64,000 nt of DNA from NCBI RefSeq assembly GCF_016406145.1, contig NZ_CP066306.1, positions 4,650,001 through 4,714,000 on the forward strand. The letters run 5' to 3'. Below the pieces are notes generated by a model. The model did not search any database. It saw only the letters and a program-made list of their open reading frames with translations, and was not told the origin of the DNA. The position numbers were made by a program, and so were the translations under genes. This stretch comes from Pseudomonas putida (lineage in GTDB: Bacteria; Pseudomonadota; Gammaproteobacteria; Pseudomonadales; Pseudomonadaceae). Each line of letters begins with the position of its first letter. Position 1 is the first letter of the stretch. This document shows, piece after piece, positions 6,031 through 13,732 of the stretch.

Positions 6031-6438
6031 ATGACCCGACCTGCCCGCTCGAAACTGTCGCGCCTGCTGTATGGCATCCTGGCTTACGTAAGCCTGGGTA
6101 TCGGCCTGGTCGCCATAGTCATTCCTGGCCTGCCGACCACCGAGTTCATCCTTCTGGCCGCCTGGGCAGCGACACGCAGCTCGCCGCGCCTGTCGGCATG
6201 GCTGGAGAACCACCGGCTGTTCGGGCCTATCCTGTTCAACTGGCGCAATGGCAAGGTGATCCAGCGCCGGGCAAAGGTCAGCGCAACCCTCAGCATGCTG
6301 GTGTGCGCAGGCCTGATGCTGGCCTTCCTTGACCATCACTGGCCGGTATTTCTGGCCATCGCCGGCATGACCCTGGGCAACCTGTGGATCTGGTCACGGC
6401 CAGAGCAGGCATGCCCGCCCGCGTCACAGGCTCAGTAG
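6031..6438 (+). CDS. DUF454 (YbaN-like) inner-membrane protein
   Basis: Small membrane protein of 135 aa. It has an N-terminal hydrophobic hairpin (LLYGILAYVSLGIGLVAIVIPGLPTTEFILLAAWAATRSS), a short loop with ENHRLFGPILFNWRNGKVI, and C-terminal membrane segments. IPGLPTTEF and NWR..GVI-like positions are the family signature. No biochemical role is known to me. In pseudomonads it often sits next to heme or iron genes, and here it follows hemO by 54 bases and may be co-transcribed. Its last 15 bases overlap, tail to tail, the end of the arcD pseudogene. Confidence 0.85.
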   Translation: MTRPARSKLSRLLYGILAYVSLGIGLVAIVIPGLPTTEFILLAAWAATRSSPRLSAWLENHRLFGPILFNWRNGKVIQRRAKVSATLSMLVCAGLMLAFLDHHWPVFLAIAGMTLGNLWIWSRPEQACPPASQAQ

Positions 6439-7858
6439 CCCTGAATACAGCGCATAAGCTGCCAGAGCCGCGCCAATCAGCACCGCCGCAAAGATCAACT
6501 TCTCCCACGTGGTGAACAGCACCTGGCCTTGCTCATGCTTGGCCCGGGCGAACAGGATCACCCCTGGCGCATACAGCAATGCCGACAGCAGCAGGTACTT
6601 GAGCCCACCGGCATACAGCAGCCACAGCGCATACACCAGCGCCACCAACGCCACCAACAGGTCCTTGCGGCGCAGCGCCTCTTGCCCGGCATAACTCTCC
6701 CCGCGCAGTGCCAAAAGCACCGCGTAGGCGGCTGACCACAGGTACGGCACCAGGATCATCGACGACGCCAGGTAGATCAGGCTGGTGTAGGTACCCGCCG
6801 AAACCAGGGTGATCAGCAAGAACCCCTGGATCATGCAGTTGGTCAGCCACAGGGCATTGGCCGGCACATGGTTGGCATTTTCCTTGGCCAAAAAACGCGG
6901 CATGGTCTTGTCCCGTGCCGTGGCGAAGAGAATTTCGGCGCACAGCAGTGCCCACGAGAGCAAAGCGCCGAGTAGCGAAACCGCCAGGCCGATGCTGATC
7001 AGCAACGCGCCCCAGGGCCCGACGATGTGCTCAAGCACCGATGCCAGTGAGGGGTTCTGCAGCCCGGCCAGTTCCGGCTGGGTCATTACGCCCAGCGACA
7101 GCACGTTGACCAGCACCAGCAGCGCCAATACCCCGAGAAAGCCGATCACCGTGGCCTTGCCCACATCGGTACGGCGCAGAGCCCGTCCTGAATAGACACT
7201 GGCGCCTTCGATACCGATGAACACGAATACGGTGACCAGCATCATGTTGCGCACCTGGTCCAGCACGTTACCGAACTGCGGGTTGCTCACGCCCCAGATA
7301 TCCCGGGTAAAGATGTCGGCGCGGAAGGCGAAGGCGGCGATGACGATGAATATCAGCAGCGGCACAACCTTGGCCACGGTGGTCACCTGGTTGATGAGGT
7401 TTTTACGCCGCTTCCTTGATGCCACGCAGCACCAGAAAGTGCACCGACCACAGCAGCAATGAGGCACAGCCGATGGCAATGGGCGTATTGCCCTCGCCGA
7501 ACACCGGAAAATAGAAACCCAGGGTACTGAACAGCAGCACGAAGTACCCCACGTTGCCCAGCCAGGCGCTGATCCAGTACCCCCACGCCGAGGAGAAGCC
7601 CATGTAATCGCCAAAACCTGCCTTGGCATAGGCATACACCCCTGAATCCAGTTCAGGCTTGCGGTTGGCCAAGGTCTGGAACACGAAAGCCAGCGCCAGC
7701 ATGCCCACTGCGGTGATACCCCAGCCGATCAGCACGGCACCGACATCCGCGCGCGCCGCCATGTTCTGCGGCAACGAGAAGATGCCGCCGCCAATCATCG
7801 AACCGACCACCAGTGCGATCAACGCGCCTAGGCGCAGTTTCTGTCCTGGTTCGCTCAT
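6424..7858 (-). pseudogene. arcD: arginine/ornithine antiporter ArcD, second copy, frameshifted
   Basis: A full-length but broken copy of the basic amino-acid antiporter. The first frame (7858 down to the TAA at 7405-7403) reads [31 protein letters not shown] to GIKEAA. The remainder, from [13 protein letters not shown] to the C-terminus, continues in another frame. Compared with the intact paralogue at 8296-9723, the only length difference is seven extra bases, GGTTTTT on the plus strand (7398-7404). Without them the junction would read AAFINQV, matching AAFINLV of the paralogue. The total of 1435 bases equals the paralogue's 1428 plus 7. Start ATG 7858 has a GAGGA ribosome site. No other lesion is seen, so inactivation looks recent. 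Confidence 0.9.
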
Positions 7859-8295
7859 GCGATTCCTCGTCTTTTGTGCGTGTTGTCACAACGCTGAAAC
7901 AGCTTTATCTGCATATAAATAGGGCCACTTATAATAGACAAAGCCATTAAAGCTATAGCACTCATAACTCTTTTGTCTATACCGGCCGACCGAGATAAAC
8001 GCTTGTCCGACGTGCAACTTTAACCACCTCGATGATCCGTGGAATTTATTGAGAAAAGTTTGCGAAAACGGCAAAAACGACTAGCTTCAGAGTTCGCAGG
8101 CTGAACAGGGCGTTTGTTCTGGTTGTACATGGAGGTGCCAGGGTACAGGGCCTGCAACAGGGCTGTCGGCACTCTCCAGGAGTCAAGTGAAGGAAATTTC
8201 CTACTTCACAACGCCATGAACTGATCCATGTCAGATCATGGCCCCGGCGACGGATTTATTCTGTCGTCAACGTTCTCCTGGTACGGAGTTGTTAA
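7859..8295. other. divergent control region between the two arcD copies
   Basis: This 437-base gap separates the minus-strand arcD pseudogene from the plus-strand arcD. The half next to the pseudogene (about 7895-8070) is unusually AT-rich and holds several TATA-like stretches on the minus strand, but no clear ANR box. The half next to the intact gene holds the ANR-type promoter described separately. No open frame with a credible start and family match was seen. Confidence 0.6.
8221..8262 (+). promoter_or_regulatory. ANR/FNR-type promoter of arcD
   Basis: CTGATCCATGTCAG (8221-8234) keeps the TGAY-N4-RTCA core of the ANR/FNR site, with changes only at the outermost bases. A -10 element TATTCT lies at 8257-8262. 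The box centre is therefore about 41.5 bases before the expected start near 8269, which is the spacing of class II FNR activation. This fits the known anaerobic induction of the arginine deiminase pathway in pseudomonads. Confidence 0.7.
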
Positions 8296-9723
8296 ATGGC
8301 TGATTCTTCCGGAAAACTAAAACTCGGCGCACTCGTTGCACTCGTCGTCGGTTCGATGATTGGCGGCGGTATCTTCTCGCTGCCGCAAAACATGGCCGCC
8401 AGCGCAGGGGTTGGCGCCGTGCTGATCGGCTGGGCAATCACCGCAGTGGGCATGCTGACCCTGGCCTTCGTGTTCCAGACCCTGGCCAACCGCAAGCCTG
8501 ACCTGGACGGCGGGGTATACGCCTACGCCAAGGCCGGCTTCGGCGACTACATGGGCTTCTCCTCGGCCTGGGGCTACTGGATCAGCGCCTGGCTGGGCAA
8601 CGTCGGTTACTTCGTGCTGCTGTTCAGTACCCTCGGCTACTTCTTCCCCATCTTCGGTGAAGGCAACACCCCGGCCGCCATCATCGGCGCCTCGGTGCTG
8701 CTGTGGGCGGTGCACTTCCTGGTTCTGCGCGGCATCAAGGAAGCGGCGTTCATCAACCTGGTCACCACAGTGGCCAAGGTTGTGCCGCTGGTACTGTTTG
8801 CGCTGATCTGCGTATTCGCCTTCAGGCTCGACATCTTCACTGCCGACATCTGGGCCACCGGCACGCCGGAACTGGGCAGCGTGATGAACCAGGTGCGCAA
8901 CATGATGCTGGTCACCGTCTGGGTGTTCATCGGCATCGAGGGTGCGAGCATCTTCTCCTCACGGGCGGAAAAACGCGCCGATGTGGGCAAGGCCACGGTC
9001 ATTGGCTTCATCACCGTGTTGCTGTTCCTGGTGCTGGTCAACGTGTTGTCGCTGGGTGTGATGACTCAACCGGAACTGGCCAAACTGCAGAACCCGTCGA
9101 TGGCTGCCGTGCTGGAGCATGTGGTTGGCCATTGGGGCGCGGTGCTGATCAGCGTCGGCCTGATCATCTCGCTGCTAGGCGCCCTGCTCTCATGGGTGCT
9201 GCTGTGCGCCGAGATCATGTTCGCCGCTGCGAAGGATCACACCATGCCGGAGTTCCTGCGCCGCGAGAATGCCAACCAGGTGCCGGCCAACGCCCTGTGG
9301 CTTACCAACGCCATGGTGCAGATCTTCCTGGTGATCACATTGTTCTCCGCCAGCACCTACCTGTCACTGATCTACCTCGCCACCTCGATGATCCTGGTGC
9401 CCTATCTGTGGTCGGCGGCCTATGGCTTCCTGCTGGCCATGCGCGGTGAAACCTACGAGCAGGCTGCCAGAGAACGCAGCAAAGACCTGCTCATCGGCGC
9501 CATTGCACTGATCTATGCCATCTGGCTGCTGTATGCCGGCGGCATGAAGTATCTGCTGCTCTCCGCCCTGCTATATGCCCCCGGGGTGATCCTGTTTGCC
9601 AAGGCCAAGCGTGAAATTGGCCAACCGATCTTCACCAACGTGGAAAAACTGATCTTTGCGGCTGTGGTCATCGGCGCCCTGGTGGCGGCCTATGGCCTGT
9701 ATGACGGCTTCCTGACCCTGTGA
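8296..9723 (+). CDS. arcD: arginine/ornithine antiporter
   Basis: Intact inner-membrane antiporter of 475 aa that exchanges arginine for ornithine. It feeds the arginine deiminase pathway that makes ATP without respiration. About 13 hydrophobic segments are visible, starting with [22 protein letters not shown], the APC-family first helix with the GGGIF substrate loop. ATG 8296 follows ACGGAG. It is the first gene of the arcDABC operon and has an ANR-type promoter. A second, broken copy lies divergently upstream (6424-7858). About 80 percent identity between the two is estimated by eye. Confidence 0.95.
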
Positions 9724-9755: not shown

Positions 9756-11009
9756 ATGTCCGCTGAAAAACAGAAGTACGGTGTGCACTCCGAAGCCGGC
9801 AAGCTGCGCAAGGTAATGGTTTGCGCTCCTGGGCTTGCGCACAAGCGCCTGACCCCGAGCAACTGCGACGAACTGCTGTTCGATGATGTGATCTGGGTCG
9901 ATCAGGCCAAACGCGACCATTTCGACTTCGTCACCAAGATGCGCGAGCGCGGCGTGGATGTGCTTGAGATGCACAACCTGCTGACCGACATCGTCCAGAA
10001 CAAAGACGCGCTGAAGTGGATTCTTGACCGCAAGATCACCCCTGACACCGTAGGTGTCGGCCTGACCAACGAGGTGCGCAGCTGGCTCGAAGGCCTCGAG
10101 CCGCGCCACCTGGCCGAGTTCCTGATCGGCGGTGTGGCCGGCCAGGACCTGCCGCAGAGCGAAGGCGCCGACGTGGTCAAGATGTACAACGATTACCTGG
10201 GCCACTCCAGCTTCATTCTGCCCCCGCTGCCGAACACCCAGTTCACCCGCGACACCACCTGCTGGATCTATGGCGGCGTCACGCTGAACCCGATGTACTG
10301 GCCGGCGCGACGCCAGGAAACGCTGCTGACCACTGCCATCTACAAATTCCACCCGCAATTCACCGGTGCCGACTTCCAGGTCTGGTACGGCGACCCGGAC
10401 AAAGACCACGGCAACGCCACCCTTGAAGGCGGTGACGTGATGCCGATCGGCAAAGGCATCGTGCTCATCGGCATGGGCGAGCGCACTTCACGCCAGGCCA
10501 TCGGGCAACTGGCGCAGAACCTGTTCGCCAAGGGCGCAGTGGAAAAGGTCATCGTCGCCGGCCTGCCGAAGTCCCGCGCGGCGATGCACCTGGACACGGT
10601 ATTCAGCTTCTGCGACCGCGACCTGGTCACAGTCTTCCCCGAAGTGGTGAAAGAAATCGTGCCGTTCATCATCCGCCCGGACGAAAGCAAGCCCTACGGC
10701 ATGGACGTGCGCCGCGAGAACAAGTCGTTCATCGAAGTGGTGGGCGAGCAACTGGGCGTCAAGCTGCGCGTGGTCGAGACCGGCGGCAACAGCTTCGCCG
10801 CCGAGCGCGAACAGTGGGATGACGGCAACAACGTGGTGGCGGTGGAACCTGGCGTGGTCATCGGCTACGACCGCAACACCTACACCAACACCCTGCTGCG
10901 CAAGGCCGGCATCGAGGTCATCACCATCAGCGCCGGCGAGCTGGGCCGGGGCCGTGGCGGCGGCCACTGCATGACCTGCCCGATCGTGCGTGACCCCATC
11001 GATTACTAA
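9756..11009 (+). CDS. arcA: arginine deiminase
   Basis: Hydrolyses arginine to citrulline and ammonia, the first step of the ADI pathway, in the cytoplasm. The protein is 417 aa from ATG 9756, chosen for the strong GGAGG site at 9742-9746; this equals the normal family length. Typical stretches are [27 protein letters not shown] at the N-terminus, [39 protein letters not shown] and, at the C-terminus, [14 protein letters not shown]. Cys405 there is the catalytic nucleophile. The gene starts 32 bases after arcD and should be on the same transcript. Confidence 0.97.
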
Positions 11010-11077: not shown

Positions 11078-12088
11078 ATGGCGTTCAACATCCATAACCG
11101 CAACCTGCTCAGCCTCGAACACCACAGCACCCGCGAGCTGAAGTACCTGCTGGACCTGTCCCGCGACCTCAAGCGTGCCAAGTACACAGGTACCGAGCAG
11201 CAGCACCTGAAAGGCAACAACATCGCCCTGATCTTCGAGAAAACCTCAACGCGCACCCGCTGCGCCTTCGAAGTGGCCGCTTATGACCAAGGGGCAAACG
11301 TTACCTACATCGATCCCAACTCTTCGCAAATTGGCCACAAGGAAAGCATGAAGGACACCGCCCGCGTACTCGGGCGCATGTACGATGCCATCGAGTATCG
11401 CGGCTTCAAGCAGGAAATCGTCGAAGAGCTGGCCAAGTTCGCCGGGGTGCCGGTGTTCAACGGCCTGACCGACGAGTACCACCCGACCCAGATGATCGCC
11501 GACGTACTGACCATGCGTGAGCACAGCGACAAGCCGCTGCACGACATCAGCTATGCCTACCTGGGCGACGCCCGCAACAACATGGGCAACTCGCTGCTGC
11601 TGATCGGCGCCAAGCTCGGTATGGACGTGCGTATCGCTGCGCCCAAGGCGCTGTGGCCGCATGACGACCTGGTCGAGCGCTGCAAGCAGTACGCTGAGGA
11701 AAGCGGTGCACGCATCACCCTTACCGAAGACCCGAAAGCTGCGGTCAAAGGTGTGGACTTCGTGCACACCGACGTCTGGGTGTCGATGGGTGAGCCGATC
11801 GAAGCCTGGGGCGAGCGCATCAAGCAGCTCAAACCCTATCAGGTGAACACGGAGCTGATGAAGTCCACCGGCAATCCGCGGACCAAATTCATGCACTGCC
11901 TGCCGGCTTTCCATAACTCCGAGACCAAGGTCGGCAAGCAGATCGCCGAACAGTATCCGGACCTGGCCAATGGCATCGAAGTGACCGACGACGTGTTCGA
12001 GTCGCCCGCCTGCATCGCCTTCGAACAGGCGGAAAACCGCATGCACACGATCAAGGCGATCCTGGTGTCGACCCTGGCTGATCTCTGA
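11078..12088 (+). CDS. arcB: catabolic ornithine carbamoyltransferase
   Basis: Second enzyme of the ADI pathway. It phosphorolyses citrulline to ornithine and carbamoyl phosphate. At 336 aa it has the catabolic OTCase length. The carbamoyl-phosphate motif STRTR is at residues 57-61; [10 protein letters not shown] follows, and MHCLPAFH is the ornithine-site loop with the conserved Cys. AAGGAG sits 8 bases before ATG 11078. It lies 68 bases after arcA. The gap to arcC is longer and holds a palindromic repeat. Confidence 0.97.
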
Positions 12089-12103
12089 TAAGCACCTCGG
12101 TAG

Positions 12104-12188
12104 TGTGGGAGCCGGCTTGCCGGCGATGCAGGCAACACGGTGCATGGCACCGGCTGCGCCGGTGATCGCCGGCAAGCCGGCTCCCACA
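12104..12188. repeat. REP pair between arcB and arcC
   Basis: Two 24-base complementary arms (12104-12127 and 12165-12188) carry the GCCGGCAAGCCGGC-type core, and each arm can also fold on itself. The loop contains a further small inverted repeat. Inside an operon such an element may stabilise the upstream mRNA or attenuate arcC; the sequence alone does not show which. Confidence 0.85.
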
Positions 12189-12230
12189 CAGAAACGAGGC
12201 GCTCCCCCCATCTTCGCAAAGGACATTCCC

Positions 12231-13160
12231 ATGCGAATCGTTGTTGCATTGGGCGGCAACGCCCTGCTGCGCCGCGGCGAGCCCATGACCGCTGACAACC
12301 AGCGCGCCAATATCCGCACCGCCACCGAGCAGATCGCCAAGATTCACCCCGGCAACGAGCTGGTCATCGCCCACGGTAACGGCCCCCAGGTTGGCTTGCT
12401 GTCATTGCAGGCGCTGTCGTACAAACCCGACGAAGCCTACCCGCTGGACGTGCTCGGTGCCGAAACCGAAGGCATGATCGGTTACATGATCGAACAGGAG
12501 CTGGGTAACCTGCTGGCGTTCGAAGTGCCGTTCGCCACCCTGCTGACCCAGGTCGAAGTCGATGCCGACGATCCGGCCTTCAAGGACCCGACCAAGTTCA
12601 TCGGCCCGGTCTACAGCAAGGAAGAAGCCGAACGCCTGGCCAAGGAGAAAGGCTGGGTGGTCAAGGCCGACGGCGACAAATACCGCCGCGTGGTGGCCAG
12701 CCCCAAACCCAAGCGCATCTTCGAGATCCGCCCGATCAAGTGGCTGCTGGAAAAAAACAGCATCGTGATCTGCGCAGGCGGTGGCGGTATCCCCACCATG
12801 TACGATGAAAACCGCAAGCTCAAAGGCATCGAAGCGGTCATCGACAAGGACTTGTGCTCGGCACTGCTGGCCGAACAACTGGAAGCCGACCTTCTGATAA
12901 TCGCCACTGACGTCGATGCGGCTTACATTGACTGGGGCAAACCCACGCAAAAAGCCATTGCCCAGGCCCACCCCGACGAACTCGAACGCCTGGGCTTCGC
13001 CGCCGGCTCCATGGGGCCGAAGGTGCAGGCCGCAAGCGATTTCGCCCGCGCCACCGGCAAGGTCGCCGTGATCAGCTCGCTGGAGAATATCGAGGACATC
13101 GTCAAAGGCACCGCCGGCACCCGTGTTTCAACGGCCAAGCCAGGCATCAGCTACCGTTGA
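12231..13160 (+). CDS. arcC: carbamate kinase
   Basis: Last enzyme of the ADI pathway. It transfers the phosphate of carbamoyl phosphate to ADP, yielding ATP, carbon dioxide and ammonia. It is 309 aa from ATG 12231, which AAAGGA at 12218-12223 supports; the frame is open further upstream but runs through the REP repeat and is not coding there. Signature parts are [47 protein letters not shown], the lid region, and [10 protein letters not shown]. It belongs to the amino-acid kinase fold. Confidence 0.96.
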
Positions 13161-13216: not shown

Positions 13217-13585
13217 ATGGCCCAGTACCAACCTGGTCACGTGCATATCGAGCGCACTGCGCTGAACGCCAATGACCACAGCTACGACCTCAACATCGAG
13301 TACGAAGCGACTCAGGATCCCAGGGAAGGTCGGGGTATCCAGTTCCGCTTGCATGGCAGCATCGAAGGCAAGCCGGTAGATGAAAAGTTTTACCTGCCCA
13401 AAGATCAGGTGTTGCCGAGCTTTTTGATGGTGCTAAGCCGCAAGGCCCAGTCACACCTGCCACCGCACAAGAAATTCGAAACGCTCGGTTCACCGCACAA
13501 GATTTACGACCAGATGTTCGAGGACATCCGCGCCAAACTGGATGTGAAGTCCGGCGATTCGATCAAGCCTGAACATTTAGAGTAA
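13217..13585 (+). CDS. DUF5064 family protein
   Basis: Protein of 122 aa with no membrane segment or signal peptide. It opens MAQYQPGHVHIERTALNANDHSYDLNIEYEA and has many charged residues near the end (KSGDSIKPEHLE). I recognise it as the Pseudomonas DUF5064 family, whose function is unknown. A strong ribosome site, CGGAGGA (13203-13209), precedes ATG 13217. It begins 56 bases after arcC and may be the last gene of the arc transcript; a palindromic repeat follows immediately. A role in arginine metabolism is only suggested by position. Confidence 0.8.
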   Translation: MAQYQPGHVHIERTALNANDHSYDLNIEYEATQDPREGRGIQFRLHGSIEGKPVDEKFYLPKDQVLPSFLMVLSRKAQSHLPPHKKFETLGSPHKIYDQMFEDIRAKLDVKSGDSIKPEHLE

Positions 13586-13676
13586 ACCCAATCGCCGGCA
13601 AGCCGGCTCCCACAGGTACCCCGCTGTCTCAGGTTCTGCGGAGTACCTGTGGGCAGGCTTGCCGGCAATTGGGTTT
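13584..13676. repeat. REP pair after the arc cluster
   Basis: Imperfect complementary arms (13584-13617 and 13644-13676) carry the GCCGGCAAGCC core. The first arm starts inside the stop codon of the DUF5064 gene. It separates the arc cluster from the sigma-54 activator gene and probably acts as a transcription boundary. Confidence 0.8.
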
Positions 13677-13732
13677 ACCACTGCTCCCAAGGCATACTAC
13701 TGCCCTCCCCGGCCATAACCCCCCGCCTCCCC

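Follow-up and report, generated by a model that had tools for sequence, protein, structure and literature searches.

Introduction

In the literature passages available, Lactococcus lactis is described as carrying two arcD genes within one arginine deiminase cluster; both of these genes, ArcD1 and ArcD2, are functional exchangers, and a separate role has been proposed for ArcD2. The same passages give no role for a second arcD copy in Pseudomonas. With respect to regulation, the P. putida subgroup is described in PMC6588701 as lacking the Anr box upstream of arcD.

Here, we examine a comparable pair of genes in Pseudomonas putida, within a stretch of 64,000 nucleotides (contig NZ_CP066306.1, positions 4,650,001 to 4,714,000) that we will call the window. 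As in Lactococcus, two arcD genes sit in one arginine deiminase cluster; unlike there, one of the two, which we call arcD2 (the numbering of arcD1 and arcD2 is our own), is interrupted by seven extra bases. We consider it probable that arcD2 is a private, recent frameshift pseudogene. It resembles the ordinary bacterial kind in every respect that we compared, namely a single small indel, a gene that is otherwise intact, an intact neighboring paralogue, and a lesion private to one genome among those examined, and we found no feature that distinguishes it from that kind. No earlier description of this allele was recognized in the titles and abstract openings of the literature searched.

Gene content of the arc locus

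The features of the locus are as follows, with scores against the protein family models named.

6424..7395, minus strand: arcD2 3' piece, 323 codons plus stop, open; TIGR03810 positions 148-468; 318/323 residues identical to P. putida HAI-2
7398..7404, minus strand: 7-base insertion in arcD2; absent from 80/80 named relatives and 55/55 aligned loci (overlapping sets)
7403..7858, minus strand: arcD2 5' piece, ORF of 151 aa ending at TAA; TIGR03810 arginine-ornithine antiporter, model positions 1-146 of 468
8296..9723, plus strand: arcD1, intact divergent paralogue, 475 aa; TIGR03810, 735 bits (cut-off 591)
9756..11009, plus strand: arcA, arginine deiminase; TIGR01078, 555 bits (cut-off 489)
11078..12088, plus strand: arcB, ornithine carbamoyltransferase; NF002470, 674 bits (cut-off 545)
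12231..13160, plus strand: arcC, carbamate kinase; TIGR00746, 438 bits (cut-off 358)

The arcD-like gene arcD2 thus spans 6424-7858 on the minus strand and is divergent from arcD1, which is followed on the plus strand by arcA, arcB, and arcC. Scored separately against TIGR03810, its pieces obtain 260 and 456 bits; no single arcD2 protein reaches the curated cut-off of 591, because the frame is broken. Descent from this family is supported, since both pieces match it best and arcABC adjoin. Like ArcD, arcD2 matches the model in consecutive parts (1-146 and 148-468) next to arcABC; unlike ArcD, its frame is interrupted and no full-length product is predicted. When ArcD1 was used to search its own genome, it recovered itself, the two arcD2 pieces, and one protein of 28% identity.

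All 80 named relatives (L065-L144, the best 80 of at least 561 candidates) carry a divergent arcD1-like gene beside, and upstream of, arcD2, from which it follows that the pairing is ancient and has been conserved. The interval that separates arcD1 from arcD2, at 7859-8295, was scanned for an Anr/FNR-like box, with up to one mismatch allowed to the motif TTGAYNNNNRTCAA, and none was found. This agrees with what PMC6588701 says of the P. putida subgroup.

Beside the arc genes lie two stretches of ~90 bases, at 13582-13678 and about 12103-12189, that have many partial matches across the source genome and HAI-2. One of the two also matches itself inverted, a pattern like that of repeated intergenic elements.

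The insertion and the reading frame

On the plus strand, the seven extra bases read GGTTTTT at 7398-7404 (AAAAACC on the coding strand). They are flanked by GCGGCGT on one side and TCATCAACCAG on the other, and they can be placed in one way only, with no sliding in either direction. The insertion creates an in-frame TAA (7405-7403), to which its first two bases belong, and this stop terminates the first ORF (7858-7403) at 151 aa. The break falls between two membrane helices predicted from hydropathy, at ~126-147 and 158-176.

The initial annotation had reported an exact 7-bp insertion in the second arcD copy, a frame of 475 codons once GGTTTTT is removed, and the residues AAFINQV at the restored junction. 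Each of these points is borne out by alignment with P. putida HAI-2 (L065), the nearest relative among the matches listed: over 1477 bases, at 94.3% identity, there is one gap opening, of seven bases, and it is the sole length difference. The 1435 bases of arcD2 equal these seven plus 476 codons including the stop, HAI-2 itself reads 475 codons, and AAFINQV is present in HAI-2, with AAFINLV in the intact paralogue. Also upheld is the remark that no other lesion is seen in the gene, as that single gap is accompanied by no further decay.

The same annotation had raised the idea of a phase-variable switch, that is, a reversible change at this site. The clean and recent state of the lesion would suit such a switch, and nothing else speaks for it. 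Phase variation is recognized by tandem repeats, or flanking direct or inverted repeats, at the site, and here no direct repeats were found within 7340-7460, while the one inverted repeat (7364-7383) lies 15 bases away and leaves the insertion outside it. The junction is unique in the genome, with no second copy of its 15-base string at up to one mismatch; the inserted state occurs in no other genome examined, and no alternative state was seen. Slippage would not help either: the A run has only five bases, and because the TAA takes in the first two bases of the insertion, it survives the gain or loss of one or two A bases. With neither repeats nor a second copy nor a second state, we reject phase variation and regard it as extremely improbable. 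Rather than a switch, we see here a gene loss of the ordinary kind and of very recent date, unless the assembly is in error.

We also considered whether the seven bases had been copied from a template, and rejected this, as the genome has a single occurrence of the longer junction string and no donor was found. An untemplated or repair-linked insertion would fit best, given that no repeat or second junction copy was found that might serve as template. The heptamer GGTTTTT itself is found 12 times in the window (both strands), against 4.1 expected from shuffles, perhaps as part of terminator T runs.

The main rival to a recent pseudogene is that the seven bases are an assembly or sequencing artefact and that arcD2 is intact in the living strain. 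The insertion does include a homopolymer, a run of five A bases. However, long-read errors are typically single-base homopolymer changes, and a unique 7-base string would be an unusual one. The genome is assembled in 2 contigs, with 100% completeness and 0.29% contamination, which also argues against an artefact, as does the rest of the window. To scan for further lesions, we took from HAI-2 the 63 ORFs that reach 120 aa or more and compared them with the window, requiring a match at 80% identity or more; the results were read partly by eye. Matches were obtained for 52 of the 63, and 41 of these 52 are full length in one frame. The other 11 comprise two ORFs cut by the window ends, arcD2 itself, and eight that we read either as shadow frames lying opposite an intact ORF or next to one, or as differing ends. 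Among the 52 matched ORFs, then, no split sense gene was recognized in the window other than arcD2. The constraint on the gene (see below) speaks for an artefact; overall, we judge one to be unlikely, at roughly one chance in several.

Occurrence among relatives

Two overlapping sets of sequences were used. The first comprises 55 aligned loci (L004-L029 and L034-L062), from which we left out the window's own loci (L003 and L033) and three matches of ~105-115 bases that cover the neighboring gene only (L030-L032). The second comprises the 80 named relatives introduced above. The same genome can stand in both; for example, L034 (G236) and L065 (HAI-2) show equal identity.

The insertion is present in 0/80 named relatives, the best 80 of at least 561 candidates, and in 0/55 aligned loci. 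For 68 of the 80 the gap falls in identical columns, and in the remaining 12 it is shifted by one column because a neighboring base differs. Read from the start codon, arcD2 has 475 codons in 79/80 named relatives, and in the last (L085) it runs off the end of the locus with no prior stop. All 55 aligned loci likewise read 475 codons, taken from the protein match in the copy most like the arcD2 5' piece, although some of the more distant loci may be arcD1-type copies. A 17-base junction pattern, allowing up to one mismatch, matches 2 of 398 genus genomes, namely the source genome and L063; the latter match is in an unrelated place and has no significant arcD match.

The initial annotation had proposed comparing this locus with other P. 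putida-group genomes and had pointed out that an insertion fixed in all relatives, together with a translated two-part protein, would count against its reading. In the event, the insertion was found in no relative examined in either set. From this comparison, the insertion is private to the source genome among the species representatives examined, and would be either species- or strain-specific. Identity to HAI-2 over this region is ~93-94%, which suggests that the source strain and HAI-2 probably belong to different species of the P. putida group.

Age of the lesion and constraint on arcD2

The first 150 residues of arcD2 are identical to those of HAI-2 (150/150), and the 3' piece shares 318/323. 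Of these five amino-acid differences, two arose on the source side and three on the HAI-2 side. Codon changes were polarized using P. faucium (L078) as outgroup, so as to separate the source branch from the HAI-2 branch. Over both pieces, the source branch carries 32 synonymous changes and 1 nonsynonymous change, and the HAI-2 branch 24 and 1. In the 5' piece the counts are 10/0 on each branch (2 codons unpolarized), and in the 3' piece 22/1 on the source branch and 14/1 on that of HAI-2 (11 codons unpolarized). The intact arcD1 gives similar figures: 29 synonymous and 2 nonsynonymous changes on the source branch and 33 and 1, respectively, on that of HAI-2, with 7 unpolarized. To judge from this similarity, arcD2 was constrained about as strongly as arcD1 until very lately.

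From the polarized counts, freedom from constraint along the whole branch would predict ~69-88 nonsynonymous changes in arcD2. The share of the branch spent free of constraint has a 95% upper bound of, roughly, 0.05-0.07, rising to a similarly rough 0.09-0.11 under a generous allotment of the unpolarized changes that we chose ourselves. By this rough estimate, arcD2 would have been free of constraint for at most about 5-11% of the branch since the split from HAI-2.

The view that the loss is recent, which had first been proposed from the bare sequence, is strengthened by the excess of synonymous over nonsynonymous change on the source branch (32 against 1) and by these bounds. A recent pseudogene is recognized by a lesion that is absent from close relatives and by the lack of further decay, and both are seen here. 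It is important to remember, however, that the constraint figures fit an unbroken gene equally well: a gene still in use would show the same absence of relaxed constraint, and this speaks in favor of an assembly error.

Consequences for arginine metabolism

If arcD2 is a recent pseudogene, as we favor, a private frameshift would have inactivated a gene that lies divergent beside arcD1-arcA-arcB-arcC. In this assembly the frame ends with codon 151 at the stop that the seven bases create; the resulting 151-residue fragment would presumably have no transport activity, and the 3' piece would probably not be usefully translated. We infer from these features a loss of ArcD2 function.

A different outcome would follow if ribosome frameshifting or restart yielded both pieces and these assembled. 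Split transporters can sometimes assemble when broken between helices, which is where this break is predicted to fall, and sequence conservation persists in the two pieces. That conservation is explained by recency, though, and an insertion private to one genome offers no conserved recoding site; nor did inspection by eye reveal a known slippery heptamer, or an obvious Shine-Dalgarno sequence before the 3' piece. We therefore hold a two-part or recoded protein to be very improbable.

Returning to loss of arcD2 by frameshift, the intact arcD1 would carry arginine/ornithine exchange. Because arcD1, arcA, arcB, and arcC are all intact, one antiporter should still serve the arginine deiminase pathway, and arginine fermentation should persist. 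It is also conceivable, if quite unlikely, that the loss is real, very recent, and adaptive, having been fixed by shifting arginine flux to the arcD1 system.

Taken alone, the case has little significance beyond assigning a very late date to the loss of one gene. The relatives examined otherwise retain the divergent arcD pair, which implies that selection on the second antiporter is normally strong. If the lesion is real, this strain offers a natural arcD2 mutant for comparison with HAI-2 on the role of the second copy. The next gene downstream of arcD2 (6031-6438) lies on the opposite strand, so no polar effect on its expression is expected.
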